Shown piece by piece: positions 26,688-34,017 of a stretch of DNA of 34,060 nucleotides. Source of the stretch: Aquificaceae bacterium (GTDB lineage: Bacteria; Aquificota; Aquificia; Aquificales; Aquificaceae); NCBI GenBank assembly GCA_027079305.1, contig JALWVU010000074.1, positions 1 through 34,060 on the forward strand, read 5' to 3'. Numbering within the stretch: the stretch's first letter is position 1; the number at the start of each line of letters is the position of its first letter. A model generated the notes under the pieces. It was not told where the DNA came from, searched no databases, and was given only the letters and a program-made list of their open reading frames with translations. The translations under genes and the position numbers were made by a program.

Positions 26688-27238
26688 TGGATCAGGAAGA
26701 ATATTCCCACGTTGAAGTGGTGGACCACGTTGTTGTTGTAATCACCCGTCATGAATATCTTCCCCTTGTATTCACCGAGGACGCCGAAGTTGGGGAAGAT
26801 GTTGTATTTGGCCCCTACGAGGAACTGAAGCCCGAAGTTGGTATCCTTATTGATCAGGCCTCCTGCCCTCTCCTTAAACCTGTTTATGGAGCCTCCAAAG
26901 CCTGTAAAGGCCCTCAGCTTTTCTCCGAAGGAGAACTCCACGGAAGGGTTCAGCTCCAGGGAGCTGTATATGACCGTCCTTCTGTCGCTCATCTTGCTTC
27001 CTGAGGAGAGTTCCATTGAAACCCCCGCGGTAAAGCCCGCGGTAGTTCCGGCGCCCAGATAGCCGTATACGGACAGAAACTCGTCGAGGGTCTTGTCCGG
27101 TTTTGATCCGTCTACGCTGTCGTATTTGACCGTTACAAGGCCTGTCTTCACACCGAACTCACGGATCACATCACCCTCGAAATACTGGGCGAAGCTGATA
27201 GAAGCCATAAAGGGTAGTGCTATTAGGAACCTTTTCAT
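26684..27238 (-). CDS. Small outer-membrane beta-barrel protein
   Basis: A 184-residue protein with a signal peptide (residues 1-18, MKRFLIALPFMASISFAQ) and alternating amphipathic strands: FGVKTGLVTVKY, FLSVYGYLGAGTTAGFTAGVS, TVIYSSLELNPSVEFSF, AFTGFGGSINRF, FGLQFLVGAKYNI, FGVLGEYKGKIF and the ending HHFNVGIFFLIH, which terminates near an aromatic-rich strand. This is typical of an 8-strand outer-membrane barrel (OmpW/OmpX-like size). It is coupled to the upstream K+ channel gene by a 4-bp overlap. The ligand or role is unknown. Confidence 0.75.
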   Translation of the reverse strand: MKRFLIALPFMASISFAQYFEGDVIREFGVKTGLVTVKYDSVDGSKPDKTLDEFLSVYGYLGAGTTAGFTAGVSMELSSGSKMSDRRTVIYSSLELNPSVEFSFGEKLRAFTGFGGSINRFKERAGGLINKDTNFGLQFLVGAKYNIFPNFGVLGEYKGKIFMTGDYNNNVVHHFNVGIFFLIH

Positions 27239-28623
27239 CCTCTCTCCTCCTTTTGATGTTCTCTTATGAGAAGAAGTTTATCACCTTTCCTGAGCATATG
27301 GGAGGTTCTCGGGAAGTATATAACCCTTCCGTCCCTGACCACGCCCACTATCCTGTAGCCTCTGTGCTCGAGTTTCTTCTCCGCCTCCCCCACGCTAATC
27401 TCATCATCCCAGTCTTTGATCTCCATCTCCATGTGCTCGACTATGTGATTGAGAAGGTCTCCGTAGAACTTCTGCTGGGCAAACTTGGATATGATCACCC
27501 CGAGCATCTCTCCGCCTATGATTATGTAGTCCGCCACCCTTCTCCTTTTTATCAGCTTTGCGTTCTCCCTCAGGAGAAGTTCGAGAACAAGGATGGCGTT
27601 CCTGTTAAGGTCCTTGACCTGCATACCCGTGAGGATGGTCCTCGCGTCTATGGAGTCTTCGGAAAAACCCGGGAGTTTCTCCGCAAGGATTATAACCATG
27701 TAAGCCTTTTCAACGCCCGCGTCCTGAAGGACCTCCTCCCTGCCGAAATCTCCCTTTTTGTAGTAAAAATCTCCCGTCTGGGGAACGTCCTGAGTCGTTA
27801 TGAGGACTATGTCCCTCCCCAGCTTGCTCAGGTTCTCGATAACAACCTTGGCGGTCTCGTTCCAACCGCAGATGACTATGTGGTTTTTCATGTCCTTAAA
27901 ACTTATCATACCCATCTTCAGCATCTGCACGTAGTTGAAGAAGCCCGCGCTTATGGTGGCTATCGACATGGAGAATATAAAGAGACCTCCCGCACCCAGA
28001 AGCATGGAGAGGACCCTGCCCTCCCAGGTTATGGGAACTATGTCCCCGTAGCCCACCGTGGTCATGGTGATCACGACAAGGTAGAGGGCATCGAAGAGGC
28101 TATTTACGTTCGGATTTCCGGCTCCCGCCTCGAGAGAGTACATGATCACGAGAGCGGACAGGAAGAAGAATACGAAGAAGGATAGGAGGAAGTAAAACTC
28201 GAAGGATATGCTCCTGAATATGAAAGTAAGAGCCTTGGCGAAGAACCTGTATCTATAAGCTATCCGCAGGAGCCTTGCCACTATCACGATGAATCTTAGG
28301 ACCCTGAAGGGCTGGAAGTAGGGGATTATGGCTATCAGGTCTATGATAGACAGGGGGTTGAGGACGTATTCGAGCTTTCTCTCAGCGAGAATGAACCTCC
28401 CAGTATATTCGAAGGCGATTACACAGGACACTACGAGCTCGAGCTTGGATATAAAAGGGTGTAGCTCCCAGTGAAATCCTTTCAGCTCGTCGTAGAGGCC
28501 CAGGACTACAGAGAGCATAAGAACGCTGAAGGAGAAACTCTGGTAGAAGATGAAGGCCCTCGAGCGGTCGTTCTCGAGTATCTCGTTCAAAAAGTGCTTC
28601 AGCATATTCAGGCTCTGGGTCAT
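27235..28623 (-). CDS. Voltage-gated-type K+ channel with RCK/TrkA domain
   Basis: A 462-residue channel. The membrane half (about 23-230) has the layout of a six-helix Kv channel, including an S4-like segment with Arg at 107, 110, 117 and 120, and a pore loop with the K+ selectivity filter TVGYGD (189-194). The cytoplasmic RCK/TrkA-N domain begins at about 247 (NHIVICGWNETAKVV), and a TrkA-C-like domain covers about 385-455. The GxGxxG of a classic NAD site reads GWNETA here, so ligand binding may differ. It starts 1 bp after the Res-like helicase stop with a GAAGGAAG ribosome-binding site, and overlaps the outer-membrane gene by 4 bp. Confidence 0.92.
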   Translation of the reverse strand: MTQSLNMLKHFLNEILENDRSRAFIFYQSFSFSVLMLSVVLGLYDELKGFHWELHPFISKLELVVSCVIAFEYTGRFILAERKLEYVLNPLSIIDLIAIIPYFQPFRVLRFIVIVARLLRIAYRYRFFAKALTFIFRSISFEFYFLLSFFVFFFLSALVIMYSLEAGAGNPNVNSLFDALYLVVITMTTVGYGDIVPITWEGRVLSMLLGAGGLFIFSMSIATISAGFFNYVQMLKMGMISFKDMKNHIVICGWNETAKVVIENLSKLGRDIVLITTQDVPQTGDFYYKKGDFGREEVLQDAGVEKAYMVIILAEKLPGFSEDSIDARTILTGMQVKDLNRNAILVLELLLRENAKLIKRRRVADYIIIGGEMLGVIISKFAQQKFYGDLLNHIVEHMEMEIKDWDDEISVGEAEKKLEHRGYRIVGVVRDGRVIYFPRTSHMLRKGDKLLLIREHQKEERG

Positions 28624-28624
28624 C

Positions 28625-30472
28625 TTAAACTTCCTTCAGAAGCAGGAAGCGAACCGCCTCCGACTTTATATTGCTCATAAGTGCTTTGACCTCCTCCCGC
28701 TCTACGTGGCTTGAGCAGTGCTTCGACCTGTCCCTAAGTTTGGTATCGGGCACCCTGTGTAAAGCTTTAGAGGATTTCTTGTTTTCATCTACCTGTTCTT
28801 CCTTTAAGGTTCCGTTTATAACGGAGAGAACTTCCCTCCTGCTTGTGGTGAACACGTAAAGGGTCTCTAAGGGTCTTACGAGATTACGCCTCCGCCTGTG
28901 CTCACCGCGGTCATCCATTATCTTTACACGAACTCCCCTGCCGAGGGATTGAAGGAGGAACTTCCGGGCGTTCCTGCTCCCGATGTTTATGTAGGCGATT
29001 ACGTTAGGCCTCGGACTGTCCCAGCCCTCGTAGAAGCTCCTCGAGCCTGCGAGTAGGCTCACACTCTCTTTGTTATCTATGTTCAGAAAGAAACTTTCCC
29101 GCTCTATCAACTCCCTGATTTCAACATTATTGGAGAGGCTCCTCAGCCAGTCTGTAATGTCGCCTATCCTGACAACCGCAAAGGGCTCCTCCGCGTTCTT
29201 CAGCTTGAAGGCTATCTCCTGTCTGTTTTCGGGATGGTGGATTATCTCCACCTTGGAGGGGCCCGGGGCGGAGAAGAAGTGCAGGTGAAGATCCTCCAGG
29301 CTAAAAGAGATTATTCCGTTTACCTCCTCCGCTCTCAGCCTGTCTTCCTCAAACCAGAAGGGGATGGTGGACAGCTCCCTTAGGAGCTCTCTCTTGAGTT
29401 CTTCGAAAACATTCACTTCAAGGCTTTCCTCTGCTATCCTGAAGAGCTCCGAGAAGAAAAGTCTGAGATCCGCATCCTTCGTATTCACCGTGTTTACGAG
29501 AACCACCGCCAGTGGGGAAGGATACCTGTCGTCTCTTATCTTTCTGAGAAACCCGGTGAGGATCAGCATCTTGGCTAAGATTCTCCTTTTCTCCTCGGGT
29601 GTATAATCAGCCCTTTTGCCAAGGGCTTTCGTCTGGGTTTCCATAACGAGGATGTGCTTTCCGTATCCTCCCCTGATGAAGTCCGCGAGGTTAAACTTGA
29701 AGACGGTGCTCGCCCTGTCGAACTCGTCGGTGAAGGTGGCGGAGAAGTTGAACATAAAGCCCCTTTTGGTGAATACCTTGAAGATCTGTCTCCTCTTGCT
29801 CTCCTCCGCATCCCCCTTGTGGGCCTCGTCCAGTATCAGATACCAGTTCCCCTCGTTGTGGTAGTTCTCGTAGTGAAGTATCTTTTCTCCCCTCCTGTCC
29901 GATATAAGATCCGCCCTGTAGTAGAAGACGAGTATGTTATCCCTGTCGAAGGGTTCCGGATTGGCCTTCCTGCGGTGGAAGTTCTTAAGCTCTTCGAGAA
30001 GTATCTTCCTGCCAGCTCCGAGGTTGTATTCCTCAACGTGTCTTTTAAAGGATTCGACGAGATCCTCCCTCTGGGTAAGAAAGAGGATATCCCTCCTCGG
30101 GATAATTCCCGCTCTCATCATAGAGTCGAGGAGTTCTATTAGCTTAACTATAACGAGCGTCTTACCGCTTCCCGTTGCCATCCAGAAGCAGGCCCTGTTT
30201 ACGAAGTTCCTGTAGGAGATATCCTCCCCTCTGAAGTGAAATCTGAGGATCTCAGAACTACCCTCCCATTCTTTATTGAATCCCCTCCTGACGTATTCAT
30301 TCCAGAGCTTTCCCTTATCTTCTTCTATCTCACGGTAGAAGTAATGAAGTAGCCTGTGTATGTTTACAAGTGCTCTGATTTGGTAGTCGTAGAGTCTTTT
30401 CTTGGCTGAGAAGTGCTCGGGATCGCTCGGAAGTTCCACAGGTGGTAGAGATTCCACAAAGTCCTGTAGCAT
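28625..30472 (-). CDS. Type III Res-like DEAD/DEAH helicase without nuclease domain
   Basis: A 615-residue superfamily 2 translocase. It has Walker A MATGSGKT (98-105), motif II DEAH (215-218), motif III SAT (244-246), motif V GSRSFYEGWDSPRPN (476-490) and motif VI QSLGRGVR (508-515). The motif V/VI pattern is that of type III restriction Res subunits. EcoP15I Res has about 970 residues and ends in a PD-(D/E)XK nuclease domain; here only about 100 residues follow motif VI, they are Arg/Lys-rich and no nuclease motif is visible. The nuclease is likely supplied by the preceding gene (4 bp upstream). Confidence 0.88.
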   Translation of the reverse strand: MLQDFVESLPPVELPSDPEHFSAKKRLYDYQIRALVNIHRLLHYFYREIEEDKGKLWNEYVRRGFNKEWEGSSEILRFHFRGEDISYRNFVNRACFWMATGSGKTLVIVKLIELLDSMMRAGIIPRRDILFLTQREDLVESFKRHVEEYNLGAGRKILLEELKNFHRRKANPEPFDRDNILVFYYRADLISDRRGEKILHYENYHNEGNWYLILDEAHKGDAEESKRRQIFKVFTKRGFMFNFSATFTDEFDRASTVFKFNLADFIRGGYGKHILVMETQTKALGKRADYTPEEKRRILAKMLILTGFLRKIRDDRYPSPLAVVLVNTVNTKDADLRLFFSELFRIAEESLEVNVFEELKRELLRELSTIPFWFEEDRLRAEEVNGIISFSLEDLHLHFFSAPGPSKVEIIHHPENRQEIAFKLKNAEEPFAVVRIGDITDWLRSLSNNVEIRELIERESFFLNIDNKESVSLLAGSRSFYEGWDSPRPNVIAYINIGSRNARKFLLQSLGRGVRVKIMDDRGEHRRRRNLVRPLETLYVFTTSRREVLSVINGTLKEEQVDENKKSSKALHRVPDTKLRDRSKHCSSHVEREEVKALMSNIKSEAVRFLLLKEV

Positions 30473-30476
30473 TTTC

Positions 30477-31262
30477 TTACGCCTCTCTTAGCCTTTCCAC
30501 ACCCCTGCTCTCCAAGTTCAGAAGATATACGAGCTCCTCTTCCGAGACACTCCTGCCGTTGAGGCGTATGTCTTCGTCATTCGGATGGAACTCGAGGCTG
30601 TAAAGTCCGAGGTATTCGTAGGTTGCTCCGCTTTTGGGGTTGAAAGCCTTTTCCTCAGATTCGTTATACCTGCGGAGCAGGTGGTCTATGTATATCAGCC
30701 TCCGGTTTATGCCCGACTCGGTTATAAGGATGAAGTAGCCTGTGCAGTAGTTAAGCAGAACCCAGTCCACGGTGAAATGCTCAAGGCTATAGTTGTCCAA
30801 TACCTTTCCAAGGTTCGAAGGGCGGGAACCGGACCTCTCGGAGGCAGTTTTGCTACCTGCGGATCTTCCCCTGCAGTCCCAGAGCCGATCGAAGTTTTCC
30901 TCTATTACCTCTTCAAACCAGTTGCTGATAAAAGTTTCCCCTGCCCTCACTCCTCTTATGAAGCTGTGAAAGTCTCTCTCCACATCTCTGAGCCTCACGC
31001 GGGTGCATTCTTCGCTGATAGCATAGATCAGAAAGTAGCCGAGGAATCCCTCCGTCACCTTGGCGAGGATGTCGCTCATCATCTTAGCTATGACCGCCTG
31101 CGGTGGGGAGACCCTGGCCCTCTCGCTTGTCTTCTCCTCCGCGAGAAAGAACCTGTCATCGTTGAGGAAGACCACATAGTCTATATCCTGGCTTATCAGG
31201 CCGTGAGTTGCGGGCTTAAGATGGTCCCTCATCCATACCGAGAAGTCGCTCGGGCCATTCAC
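30477..31262 (-). CDS. Putative stand-alone PD-(D/E)XK nuclease subunit of the R-M operon
   Basis: A 261-residue protein between the methyltransferase and helicase genes (4-bp gaps on both sides). D26/D28 in SQDIDYVVFL, followed after 13-15 residues by E42-x-K44 in FFLAEEKTSE, and Q55 in the next helix give the D-(D/E)XK-Q arrangement of this nuclease fold, with hydrophobic strands on both sides. The middle (about 130-152) is a low-complexity Ser/Arg/Gly linker. The C-terminal half (160-261) has mixed helix-strand character and no motif I recognise. Start is the GTG at 31262, with GGAG upstream. Nuclease function is inferred from motif and context, not proven. Confidence 0.62.
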   Translation of the reverse strand: MNGPSDFSVWMRDHLKPATHGLISQDIDYVVFLNDDRFFLAEEKTSERARVSPPQAVIAKMMSDILAKVTEGFLGYFLIYAISEECTRVRLRDVERDFHSFIRGVRAGETFISNWFEEVIEENFDRLWDCRGRSAGSKTASERSGSRPSNLGKVLDNYSLEHFTVDWVLLNYCTGYFILITESGINRRLIYIDHLLRRYNESEEKAFNPKSGATYEYLGLYSLEFHPNDEDIRLNGRSVSEEELVYLLNLESRGVERLREA

Positions 31263-31266
31263 AGGC

Positions 31267-33897
31267 TCATCTCCACCAGAGGGCTTTGGCTATCTCATCA
31301 AGCTCTACCCTTCCTTCGTCGATCCGGACTTTAGATCCGTCTTCCAGCTCGACCAGCCCGTCTTTGATACTTCTTATCCTTAGGCCTTTTATTAGGGACA
31401 GGGTCTCCGCAAGATCGATCTGTTTCTTCGGATAGAGCTTGTCGGGCCTGAAGTAAAACTTTCCATTCTCCTTTTCTACGCTGTGAAGGAGCTTCGTATC
31501 GACCGAGAAGAGGAATTCCTCGGGGAAGTTCTCGTGATCCTTCTCTATATCGTTGTACCTTATAGTTCTAAGTATGTCTTCATATTGCTCGAGTTCAAAG
31601 TATTTGAAAAAGCCACCTGCACTGCTCTCGTTGTATTCCTTTTTCACATCCTCCTCCTTGCTAATGCCGGATCTGTCGTAGGCTAAGACCTTCTTCATCC
31701 GTGGCAGGACCACCCTGTAGAAATGCTCCCCCATCTCTATACCTATCCACTTTCTTCCCAGCTTGTGGGCGACCGCGGTGGTGGTTCCCGAACCGAGGAA
31801 GAAGTCCAGGACGATATCTCCTCTATCCGATGTGGACTCTATGACCCTCTTGAGCAGGGCCTCCGAGTTCTGGGTCTTGAATCCGAAGGTGTCCTCGTAG
31901 GAGGGGATGTCCTTCCAGTTGTCCGTTATCTTCCTCTTTTCGGAAGTCAAGTACTCTACCCTCCAGTCGTCCGCTCCACAGTTCAGGCATCTGTCTACCT
32001 CAGATACACCGTAAACCTTCCTGCCGTTCTTGAGGCCCATGAACTTGAACCTTTCCTTCTCGTTTTTTAAGACCTCTTTCAGGAAGTTTTCTCCTCTTTT
32101 AAGCTCGTCGTAGTAGTAGACCGCCCCGCAGGCTCTGCACTTGAGCCTCAGGTATCTCTCCTTCAGGAGCTTGTCTACCTTCTCCTGCTTCAGGGAGAAG
32201 TGCTGTCCCTCTGGAGGATACAGCTTCTTTCCCAGGAACACCCTCTCTCTCGGGTTCCTCTCCTCCTGCTTTAAAAAGCCCGTCCACTTTATCTCCGAGA
32301 GTTTCCTCGGAACGAACAGGTCGTATCTCTTGACCTTCTCTTCACATTTTGAGTAGAAGTAGAGGAACTCGTTTTCTACCTCGAACTTGCCGGGCGTCCC
32401 TATGGCCTGCCTCTTCCTGTTTATCAGGATCTCGTTCCTGAAGTTTTCCTCTCCGAAGATCTCGTTCAGCAGTAATCTCACGTAAGCGTTCCCGTTGTAG
32501 TCACACCTCACGAATATGCTCCCTTCCTCCTTAAGAAGGTCCTTACCGAGCCTTATCCTGTTCTCGAGCATGGTTATCCATGTAGTGTCCTTGTAGTCCA
32601 CCAGATAGTCGTAGTCCGCGTCCTGACCCTTGTTGAAAGGAGGATCTATGTATATTGTCTGAACCCTCCCTTTGAATTTTGGCAGGATTGTGTTTAAGGC
32701 CTGAAAGTTTTCACTCTTTATCAGCCAGCCGTCAAGCTCCTCCTCGAGATTCTCAAAAAGGGAGAGTATCTCCTGCTCCAAGTCTTTGAAGTATCTGGTA
32801 TCCACGGGAAGGAATCTGTGCTTTTCGTTCAGCCTCAATCCATGGAGATCTCTGACAAGTATGTCTTCCTTTCGGAAAGAGCTCTCCACTATCCCGAGAT
32901 CTACCCACTCTTTAACCTGAGTATCCATATTCGGATGGGAGATGATCTTCTCTATTACTTGAATTCCTCCTTTCTTTTCTATCCTGTCAAGAGTGATCAC
33001 GTAGTTGGAGTTGAAAACAAAGCGGGGCTTGAGCCATACCTTTAAAAGCTCGTTTTCAAAGAGAGCTATCCACTTTATTATCCTGTGCGCTATCTCCTTG
33101 AGAACTTGGAGCTGTCTTATCCTCTTCTCCGTCCAGTAGGTAAACTCTTCCTGTCCCACGAAGCCGAAAACATACTGATACATCCAGAGATCGAACTGCT
33201 CCTTAAGGAACTTTTCCGCATCCTTACATATGAAGTAGTCCACTTTCCTCTGCCTTTCGAAGATCCCTATGGCTTTTCTTATGACCTCTTCAGGAGGTAC
33301 CTCCTCTGTGTATCTCTTGAGTCCGAGTTTCTTCTTTATCTCCCTCCTTATACTCTCCACCCTGGTCTCCCTGTTCCCTTCCCTGTATGCGACCTTCAGG
33401 ATAAGCTTCTTTTGATCCTTAAGATAGTCTTGGTAGGTGTATATGAGGGCTTTTTTCTCATTCCCCTTTTTGTATTCGAGGGAGGACACGGCAAAGAAGA
33501 TCTTAAAGCCTTCCACCTCTACCTCCATACTTCTCAGAAGTCTGTCCGTTTTTACGTAGTAATGACGGGAAGTCTTCCAATAGAGCCTCACGTCCGCCTC
33601 CCCGTATATGCGGTCGAAAACACTTGCGTGGTAAGGTGTAAGTGCCATCATAGGCGTCCCGGTATCGTTGAGGTATCTGTGGAAGAAATCGTAAAGTCTG
33701 TCGAGCAGTTCTTCCCTGAACTCGGGAAAGTCTCTGGTTCTGTCTTCTATGAACTTTTCCAGGTCTGGTTTTACTTTCTTTGTAAAGAACTTGCTTTTGA
33801 CTTTCAGCAGGTTTACGTATCCTCCCTCTCCCTCTATCTTCTCGCCCACGAAGGTCTCCTCGAGGAGTTCAAAGAACCTGTGTGTATTTTTATCCAT
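31267..33897 (-). CDS. Type III-like (beta-class) adenine-specific DNA methyltransferase
   Basis: An 876-residue enzyme that should transfer a methyl group from SAM to adenine N6. Motif IV is TIYIDPPFN (D418-F421) and motif I comes later, LDFFLGSGTTTAVAHKLG (D698, G702-G704); this order defines the beta class of type III Mod proteins. Between them is an insert with two CX2C pairs (C587/C590 and C637/C640), a probable zinc ribbon within the target-recognition part. About 380 residues precede the catalytic core, much more than in EcoP15I Mod (644 aa in total). It is the first gene of a five-gene minus-strand run. It starts at the ATG at 33897. Confidence 0.92.
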   Translation of the reverse strand: MDKNTHRFFELLEETFVGEKIEGEGGYVNLLKVKSKFFTKKVKPDLEKFIEDRTRDFPEFREELLDRLYDFFHRYLNDTGTPMMALTPYHASVFDRIYGEADVRLYWKTSRHYYVKTDRLLRSMEVEVEGFKIFFAVSSLEYKKGNEKKALIYTYQDYLKDQKKLILKVAYREGNRETRVESIRREIKKKLGLKRYTEEVPPEEVIRKAIGIFERQRKVDYFICKDAEKFLKEQFDLWMYQYVFGFVGQEEFTYWTEKRIRQLQVLKEIAHRIIKWIALFENELLKVWLKPRFVFNSNYVITLDRIEKKGGIQVIEKIISHPNMDTQVKEWVDLGIVESSFRKEDILVRDLHGLRLNEKHRFLPVDTRYFKDLEQEILSLFENLEEELDGWLIKSENFQALNTILPKFKGRVQTIYIDPPFNKGQDADYDYLVDYKDTTWITMLENRIRLGKDLLKEEGSIFVRCDYNGNAYVRLLLNEIFGEENFRNEILINRKRQAIGTPGKFEVENEFLYFYSKCEEKVKRYDLFVPRKLSEIKWTGFLKQEERNPRERVFLGKKLYPPEGQHFSLKQEKVDKLLKERYLRLKCRACGAVYYYDELKRGENFLKEVLKNEKERFKFMGLKNGRKVYGVSEVDRCLNCGADDWRVEYLTSEKRKITDNWKDIPSYEDTFGFKTQNSEALLKRVIESTSDRGDIVLDFFLGSGTTTAVAHKLGRKWIGIEMGEHFYRVVLPRMKKVLAYDRSGISKEEDVKKEYNESSAGGFFKYFELEQYEDILRTIRYNDIEKDHENFPEEFLFSVDTKLLHSVEKENGKFYFRPDKLYPKKQIDLAETLSLIKGLRIRSIKDGLVELEDGSKVRIDEGRVELDEIAKALWWR

Positions 33898-33952: not shown

Positions 33953-34017
33953 ATCAGGAACAAAATGTGTTCAGAAACAAAATGTGTTCAGATGATTAGA
34001 TTCTACAGTCCTCAGGC
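33938..34017. repeat. Inverted repeat framing the tandem repeats upstream of mod
   Basis: GCCTGAGAACTG (33938-33949) is nearly repeated in inverted form at 34006-34017 (CAGTCCTCAGGC, 11 of 12 paired), with the pairing extending a little inward with one gap. The two arms enclose the tandem 17-bp repeat. It could be a regulatory structure or the scar of an insertion. Confidence 0.5.
33959..33992. repeat. Perfect tandem 17-bp repeat upstream of mod
   Basis: AACAAAATGTGTTCAGA occurs twice, head to tail, at 33959-33975 and 33976-33992. Each unit contains ACA-N5-TGT, and the first extends to the imperfect palindrome GAACA-N5-TGTTC, which resembles a dimer binding site. The pair lies directly upstream of the candidate -35 box of the methyltransferase. 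The remaining sequence to 34060 shows no gene I can call. Confidence 0.6.

Follow-up and report, generated by a model that had tools for sequence, protein, structure and literature searches.

Type III restriction–modification (R-M) systems of the DthLIII/FnoB1III group consist of two genes, and their Res proteins of about 990 aa carry a C-terminal nuclease. DthLIII modifies CACC to give m4C, and its methylation depends on co-expression of Res; a requirement of Res for methylation by Mod has been shown for both DthLIII and FnoB1III (PMC8259958). EcoP15I and EcoPI are likewise two-gene systems with the nuclease fused to Res, and they make m6A. Cleavage by type III systems is ATP-dependent, requires two inverted sites and falls about 25 bp from the site. 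A helical spacer precedes the nuclease domain of EcoP15I, which shows disorder in the crystal structure (PMC4490356). Third genes have been described in BspHIV and Eco86II, where the additional gene encodes an ATPase 5' of mod without a nuclease motif (PMC8259958, Murray et al. 2021), and in the three-gene CglI/NgoAVII system (M, R, N), in which a separate nuclease and an ATPase cut together (PMC4267653). A methyltransferase, a nuclease and an SF2 ATPase encoded as three genes are therefore already known from CglI/NgoAVII, as is a different third gene in type III systems. In the open-licence literature, we found no description of a type III system that pairs a nuclease-less Res with a separate nuclease.

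The window analyzed here is the whole 34,060-nucleotide stretch of contig JALWVU010000074.1 from an Aquificaceae bacterium. It contains the following features:

31267–33897, minus strand: Mod, 876 aa, a type III, beta-class amino-methyltransferase
31263–31266, minus strand: gap between Mod and Mid, exactly 4 bp of junction DNA
30477–31262, minus strand: Mid, the middle protein, 261 aa, GTG start, a putative stand-alone nuclease
30473–30476, minus strand: gap between Mid and the helicase, exactly 4 bp of junction DNA
28625–30472, minus strand: Res-like SF2 helicase/ATPase, 615 aa, without a C-terminal nuclease domain

An earlier note on this DNA had described a trio of Mod, a 261-aa protein and a Res-like helicase separated by 4-bp gaps, and the coordinates of all three genes confirm it. 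The type III-like character that it gave to Mod and Res agrees with matches to PADLOC MTase_III and Pfam ResIII. The trio resembles the DthLIII/FnoB1III group in its homologous Mod and helicase core, its DPPF motif and its thermophilic host, but that group has no Mid. With EcoP15I and EcoPI it shares the logic of a Mod and an SF2 Res with a ResIII domain. Like CglI/NgoAVII, it encodes a methyltransferase, a separate nuclease candidate and a separate SF2 ATPase in three genes; CglI/NgoAVII, however, has a C5 methyltransferase, a nuclease of the PLD family that has a B3 domain of its own for recognition, and a Z1-domain ATPase. Pfam searches of the trio returned N6_N4_Mtase and ResIII only, with no PLD or Z1 domain, and the trio is not a CglI/NgoAVII system.

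Residues 1–864 of the window Mod match PADLOC MTase_III PDLC03638 (E 1e-276), and the protein also matches Pfam N6_N4_Mtase (8e-41) and the EcoP15I Mod in the PDB (1e-16). Motif IV (DPPF, at 418) precedes a target-recognition domain (TRD, ~521–650) that contains a CxxC, and motif I (FLGSGT, at 700) follows it, which is the order of a beta-class type III Mod. Related Mods were found in 30 of the 136 genomes of the phylum at the thresholds used. The Mod tree places L069/L070/L071 as the sister group of the window clade (support 100/100). The window and L070 Mods are homologous along their full length, at about 45–53% identity, and the helicase cores of the two systems are 39–42% identical. The genome with L070 gave three N6_N4_Mtase matches, one of which is a large type III-like Mod, and L070 is probably DthLIII. 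By homology of Mod and of the Res core, and by tree position, the window system belongs to the DthLIII-like m4C type III clade. By analogy with DthLIII, we infer an m4C product and a Mod that would be inactive without Res. The m6A mark expected by the earlier note is doubtful, because DthLIII, the characterized relative, makes m4C. The genome from which the window comes also encodes another type III system, which is full-length and consists of two genes (L069:3181-8783, G000:C55). Upstream of the window mod, near the contig end, lies a short tandem-like repeat, aacaaaatgtgttcag, in two copies (33955–33995).

The window helicase carries the SF2 motifs GSGKT, DEAH, SAT and QSLGRGVR (motif VI, residues 508–515) and matches Pfam ResIII (1.3e-18), and a Res with SF2 motifs adjoining mod is a type III feature. 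The protein terminates about 100 residues past motif VI. Full-length Res relatives are ~960–1060 aa long and end in a PD...DxK nuclease with the consensus FkPDFIFWl.Kg..Y.IlFvDPKG; alignment with them bore out the earlier suspicion that this PDF..FW..DPKG nuclease is missing from the 615-aa window protein. As the PD-(D/E)XK domain at the Res C-terminus that characterizes type III systems is absent, we file the trio as type III-derived rather than canonical type III. A tblastn search with the C-terminal nuclease domain detected no remnant after the window helicase gene, so this gene is not a frameshifted or broken full-length res. The window helicase forms its own long branch in the Res tree, and it is ~50 aa shorter than the sister short Res proteins. 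A potassium-channel gene with TrkA domains (27235–28623) begins 1 bp past the helicase stop.

We then compared Res relatives across genomes. Within the phylum, related Res proteins occur in 27 of 136 genomes at the thresholds used. Two-gene relatives (L038 and L068–L071) have a Res of about 960–1000 aa, and four trio relatives (L062, L063, L065 and L067) have a Res of 659–684 aa; the genome survey for the same trio that the earlier note had proposed thus recovered it in related genomes. A scan of genome contigs gave 523 Res relatives. Among the best 80 of these 523, which were read, the C-terminal nuclease is present in all relatives from outside Aquificota except L103; L133 has the nuclease and an interrupted helicase. 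Searches of 695 genomes of two other phyla yielded eight Res relatives, seven with open frames of 944–1121 aa and the broken L103 (766). L103 comes from an archaeal MAG, Candidatus Methanolliviera, and its Res nuclease has suffered two frameshifts and a truncation directly after DPKG (L103:7901-8560), with Mod, helicase core and Mid intact.

The nuclease was lost repeatedly. In the Res-core tree, the short state requires at least three changes, forced by supported branches, a count that takes in L066, which groups with L067; the shape of the Mod tree agrees. L066 was left out of the locus counts: although its Res is short and a nuclease-like gene is present, the Mod is broken and the contig ends 86 bp later. 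The full-length L064 is nested as sister of the short L065, with Res cores 83% identical. Compared with outgroups, the L064 C-terminal domain gave 0.32–0.38 and its core 0.42–0.48, so that the two diverge in step. Because this divergence is as expected for its core, the L064 nuclease looks ancestral and inherited rather than recently regained. A single ancestral loss followed by regain in L064 through recombination is less economical, though conceivable. The locus sets, trio loci included, are largely MAG sequences.

Both the Mod end (LWWR stop) and the Res start are conserved, and in every trio the small gene fits exactly into the space that they enclose. Since the LWWR-stop end is kept in the sister trios, the middle gene changes right after the end of Mod. 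The Mids fall into at least three unrelated sequence families: those of L062 and L065 are 62% identical, that of L067 is weakly similar to the L063 Mid (32%, E 2e-6), and the window Mid is unlike all sister Mids. L062 and L063 have unrelated Mids with Res proteins 73% identical, whereas the Mids of L063 and L103 are 59–60% identical with Res proteins at 46%. The earlier note had read the middle gene as a Res nuclease that had apparently been split off, but this view did not survive. Profile comparison of the Mids with 80 Res C-terminal domains by hhalign showed no detectable relation (E 0.18–0.48). Even between close sister systems whose Mod and Res are 65–74% identical, the Mids often have nothing in common. 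A literal split of the Res domain is therefore not supported, and these loci fit replacement and exchange instead of splitting.

Near its N-terminus, the window Mid carries D26-x-D28, E42-x-K44 and Q54. This is the D...E-x-K...Q pattern reported earlier, and it contains the D...(D/E)xK catalytic motif of PD-(D/E)XK nucleases, a superfamily with an alpha-beta-beta-beta-alpha-beta fold. A loose D...[DE]xK arises in 26% of shuffles of the window Mid and therefore means little alone, whereas 0.46% of the shuffles contain the strict DxD[hydrophobic]...[hydrophobic]xExK (chance 0.0046). The strict motif, in the same slot as the sister DxD...ExK genes, upholds the idea of a separate nuclease-like gene between Mod and Res and suggests that the window Mid is a nuclease. 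Codon scores identify the minus-strand frame as coding, with +0.27 per codon against −0.13 for an overlapping 249-aa plus-strand ORF. The protein had no match in Pfam, NCBIfam, PADLOC, PHROG or PDB. Searches of the 136 genomes of the phylum and of genome contigs, viral contigs and plasmids yielded no homologs, and phages gave chance matches only. No relative reached statistical significance, with a leave-one-out profile score of p about 0.02 at best, and a MAFFT alignment with the sister Mids misplaced the ExK motif. AlphaFold2 run on the single sequence without relatives gave a pLDDT of 38; for a sister Mid, a two-sequence prediction reached a pLDDT of 57. Both models were too poor to use, and Foldseek against the PDB returned no meaningful match. 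A GSRPSxL stretch occurs at residues ~141–160 of the window Mid, toward its C-terminus, and at residues 7–28 of the L062 Mid, at its N-terminus. This 'GSRPS' stretch, common to the window Mid and L062/L065 (hhalign E 0.025, borderline), is possibly a shared accessory domain and was set aside in the argument below.

We consider it somewhat probable that the locus is an R-M system on a type III chassis in which the Res nuclease was lost and replaced by a separately encoded, exchangeable and unrelated nuclease, Mid. A chassis of the DthLIII (m4C) clade would have lost the C-terminal nuclease built into Res, and an unrelated nuclease would have entered the space separating mod from res in the form of an exchangeable cassette, with Mid rather than Res performing cleavage. 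The helicase may have been kept because Res would be needed in this clade for Mod to methylate at all, and possibly also for driving DNA communication. In the version that we prefer, slightly over the alternative, Mid would be an endonuclease with the same target as its Mod, in a type II-like manner, which would explain a Mid that changes together with the TRD. If this is true, type III systems can do without a nuclease of their own and rely on unrelated ones acquired as cassettes, a route by which ATP-dependent type III restriction could become type II-like. Such loci would offer a clean test of the purpose of the type III motor once the nuclease is gone, and of why thermophile systems need Res for methylation. 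Moreover, the unrelated Mids would all be new thermostable nucleases whose partner methyltransferases are known.

We next compared the TRDs of the trio Mods. TRD identity is 78% for L062/L065 and 60% for L063/L103, and 26–36% for most other trio pairs. In the Mod stretch between the TRD and Mid, identity is 61% for L062/L065 and 50% for L063/L103; the L063 and L103 Mods are 48% identical at the N-terminus. In L063/L103, the similar TRD and Mid are thus separated by a dissimilar stretch, which argues against transfer of a single block. The TRD of L062/L065 also occurs in the full-length-Res systems L071 and L122, without such a Mid, and the TRD of L064, a full-length-Res member of the trio clade, is 69% identical to that of L069. 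The chance of the observed pairing of Mid and TRD among the six loci is about 1/45. Closely related Mids thus appear to accompany related TRDs in two pairs, one of them within a single clade. We regard this as a lead: a target-matched endonuclease would produce such pairing, and a sequence-blind subunit would not need it.

Target matching would make the trios a hybrid R-M class, in which a type III Mod and a nuclease-less Res modify and an exchangeable, target-matched endonuclease, encoded exactly between the two and swapped with the TRD, restricts, the change from type III to type II-like having taken place several times. We put this forward tentatively. Type II R-M systems with small PD-(D/E)XK enzymes also have a stand-alone nuclease-like gene beside a methyltransferase, and they resemble the Mids in fast divergence and in an apparent link to specificity. 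To our knowledge, type II systems do not retain a type III helicase and usually lack a Mod of 800–900 aa.

Alternatively, the three proteins may form a type III complex, with Mid as a sequence-independent nuclease subunit on Mod2-Res that cleaves once two complexes have met, in the manner of the C-terminal domain of the EcoP15I Res; specificity would come from Mod alone, and ATP and two inverted sites would be required. In favor of this explanation, all trios keep the motor, and the helicase motifs are preserved. The flexible placement of the EcoP15I nuclease, disordered behind its spacer, makes a detached or replaced nuclease mechanically plausible (PMC4490356), and CglI/NgoAVII is a three-gene precedent (PMC4267653). 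However, a generic subunit should keep a conserved docking surface, yet Res proteins that are ~70% identical go with unrelated Mids. The Mids also seem to track the TRD, which would be needless for a generic subunit, and a need of Res for methylation, like that of DthLIII, would already account for retention of the helicase. Overall, we find the three-subunit complex doubtful, if conceivable.

We also considered whether Mid could be another cargo gene, such as an anti-phage effector, a toxin–antitoxin component or a regulator, in a system that has lost restriction and is now modification-only or regulatory. In the full-length-Res members L079–L154, cargo recurs in the interval that separates mod from res (e.g., L122:4599-5904, L131:2922-5883 and L109:5123-5953). 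Its contents, named by eye, include BRO-like, Schlafen-like, PHP-like, AAA-like and TIR-like genes as well as PIN/COG2856-like and MNT/HEPN-like pairs. Because the gap in this family hosts such unrelated cargo, position alone proves nothing, and the argument depends on the association with the motif. A nuclease fold of the window Mid is suggested by that motif, and the AlphaFold2 pLDDT of 38 leaves room for a cargo gene. Nevertheless, a slot gene with DxD[hydrophobic]...ExK is present in all six loci that lack a working C-terminal nuclease (window, L062, L063, L065, L067 and L103), whereas the 65 intact-nuclease loci, counted by hand, gave a single small slot ORF with this motif, an unrelated MNT-type nucleotidyltransferase in L153. 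With a generous by-eye count of four nuclease-like slot genes in intact loci (L064, L079, L114 and L142), Fisher's p is 1.5e-6, with loci that are not fully independent. In L064, where the Res nuclease is kept, the middle gene has ExE instead of ExK. Mod, Mid and helicase are, moreover, all intact and tightly spaced in the window. We therefore regard a mere cargo role as unlikely.

Finally, we looked for Mid-like proteins elsewhere. A Mid-A profile had no match in 345 genomes of another phylum, and a profile match in L121|3 was rejected as a Mid, being an out-of-frame ORF. In G035, a Mid-like gene (E 6e-5) overlaps a small beta-class methyltransferase gene in a type II-like layout. At L160:1426-2645, the gene for a Mid-A-like protein of 170 aa overlaps a small methyltransferase gene. 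Streptomyces phages L171, L172, L173 and L174 encode hypothetical homologs of the Mid-A-like protein (phrog_16357) of ~300 aa, in which the DxD...ExK motif is degenerate.
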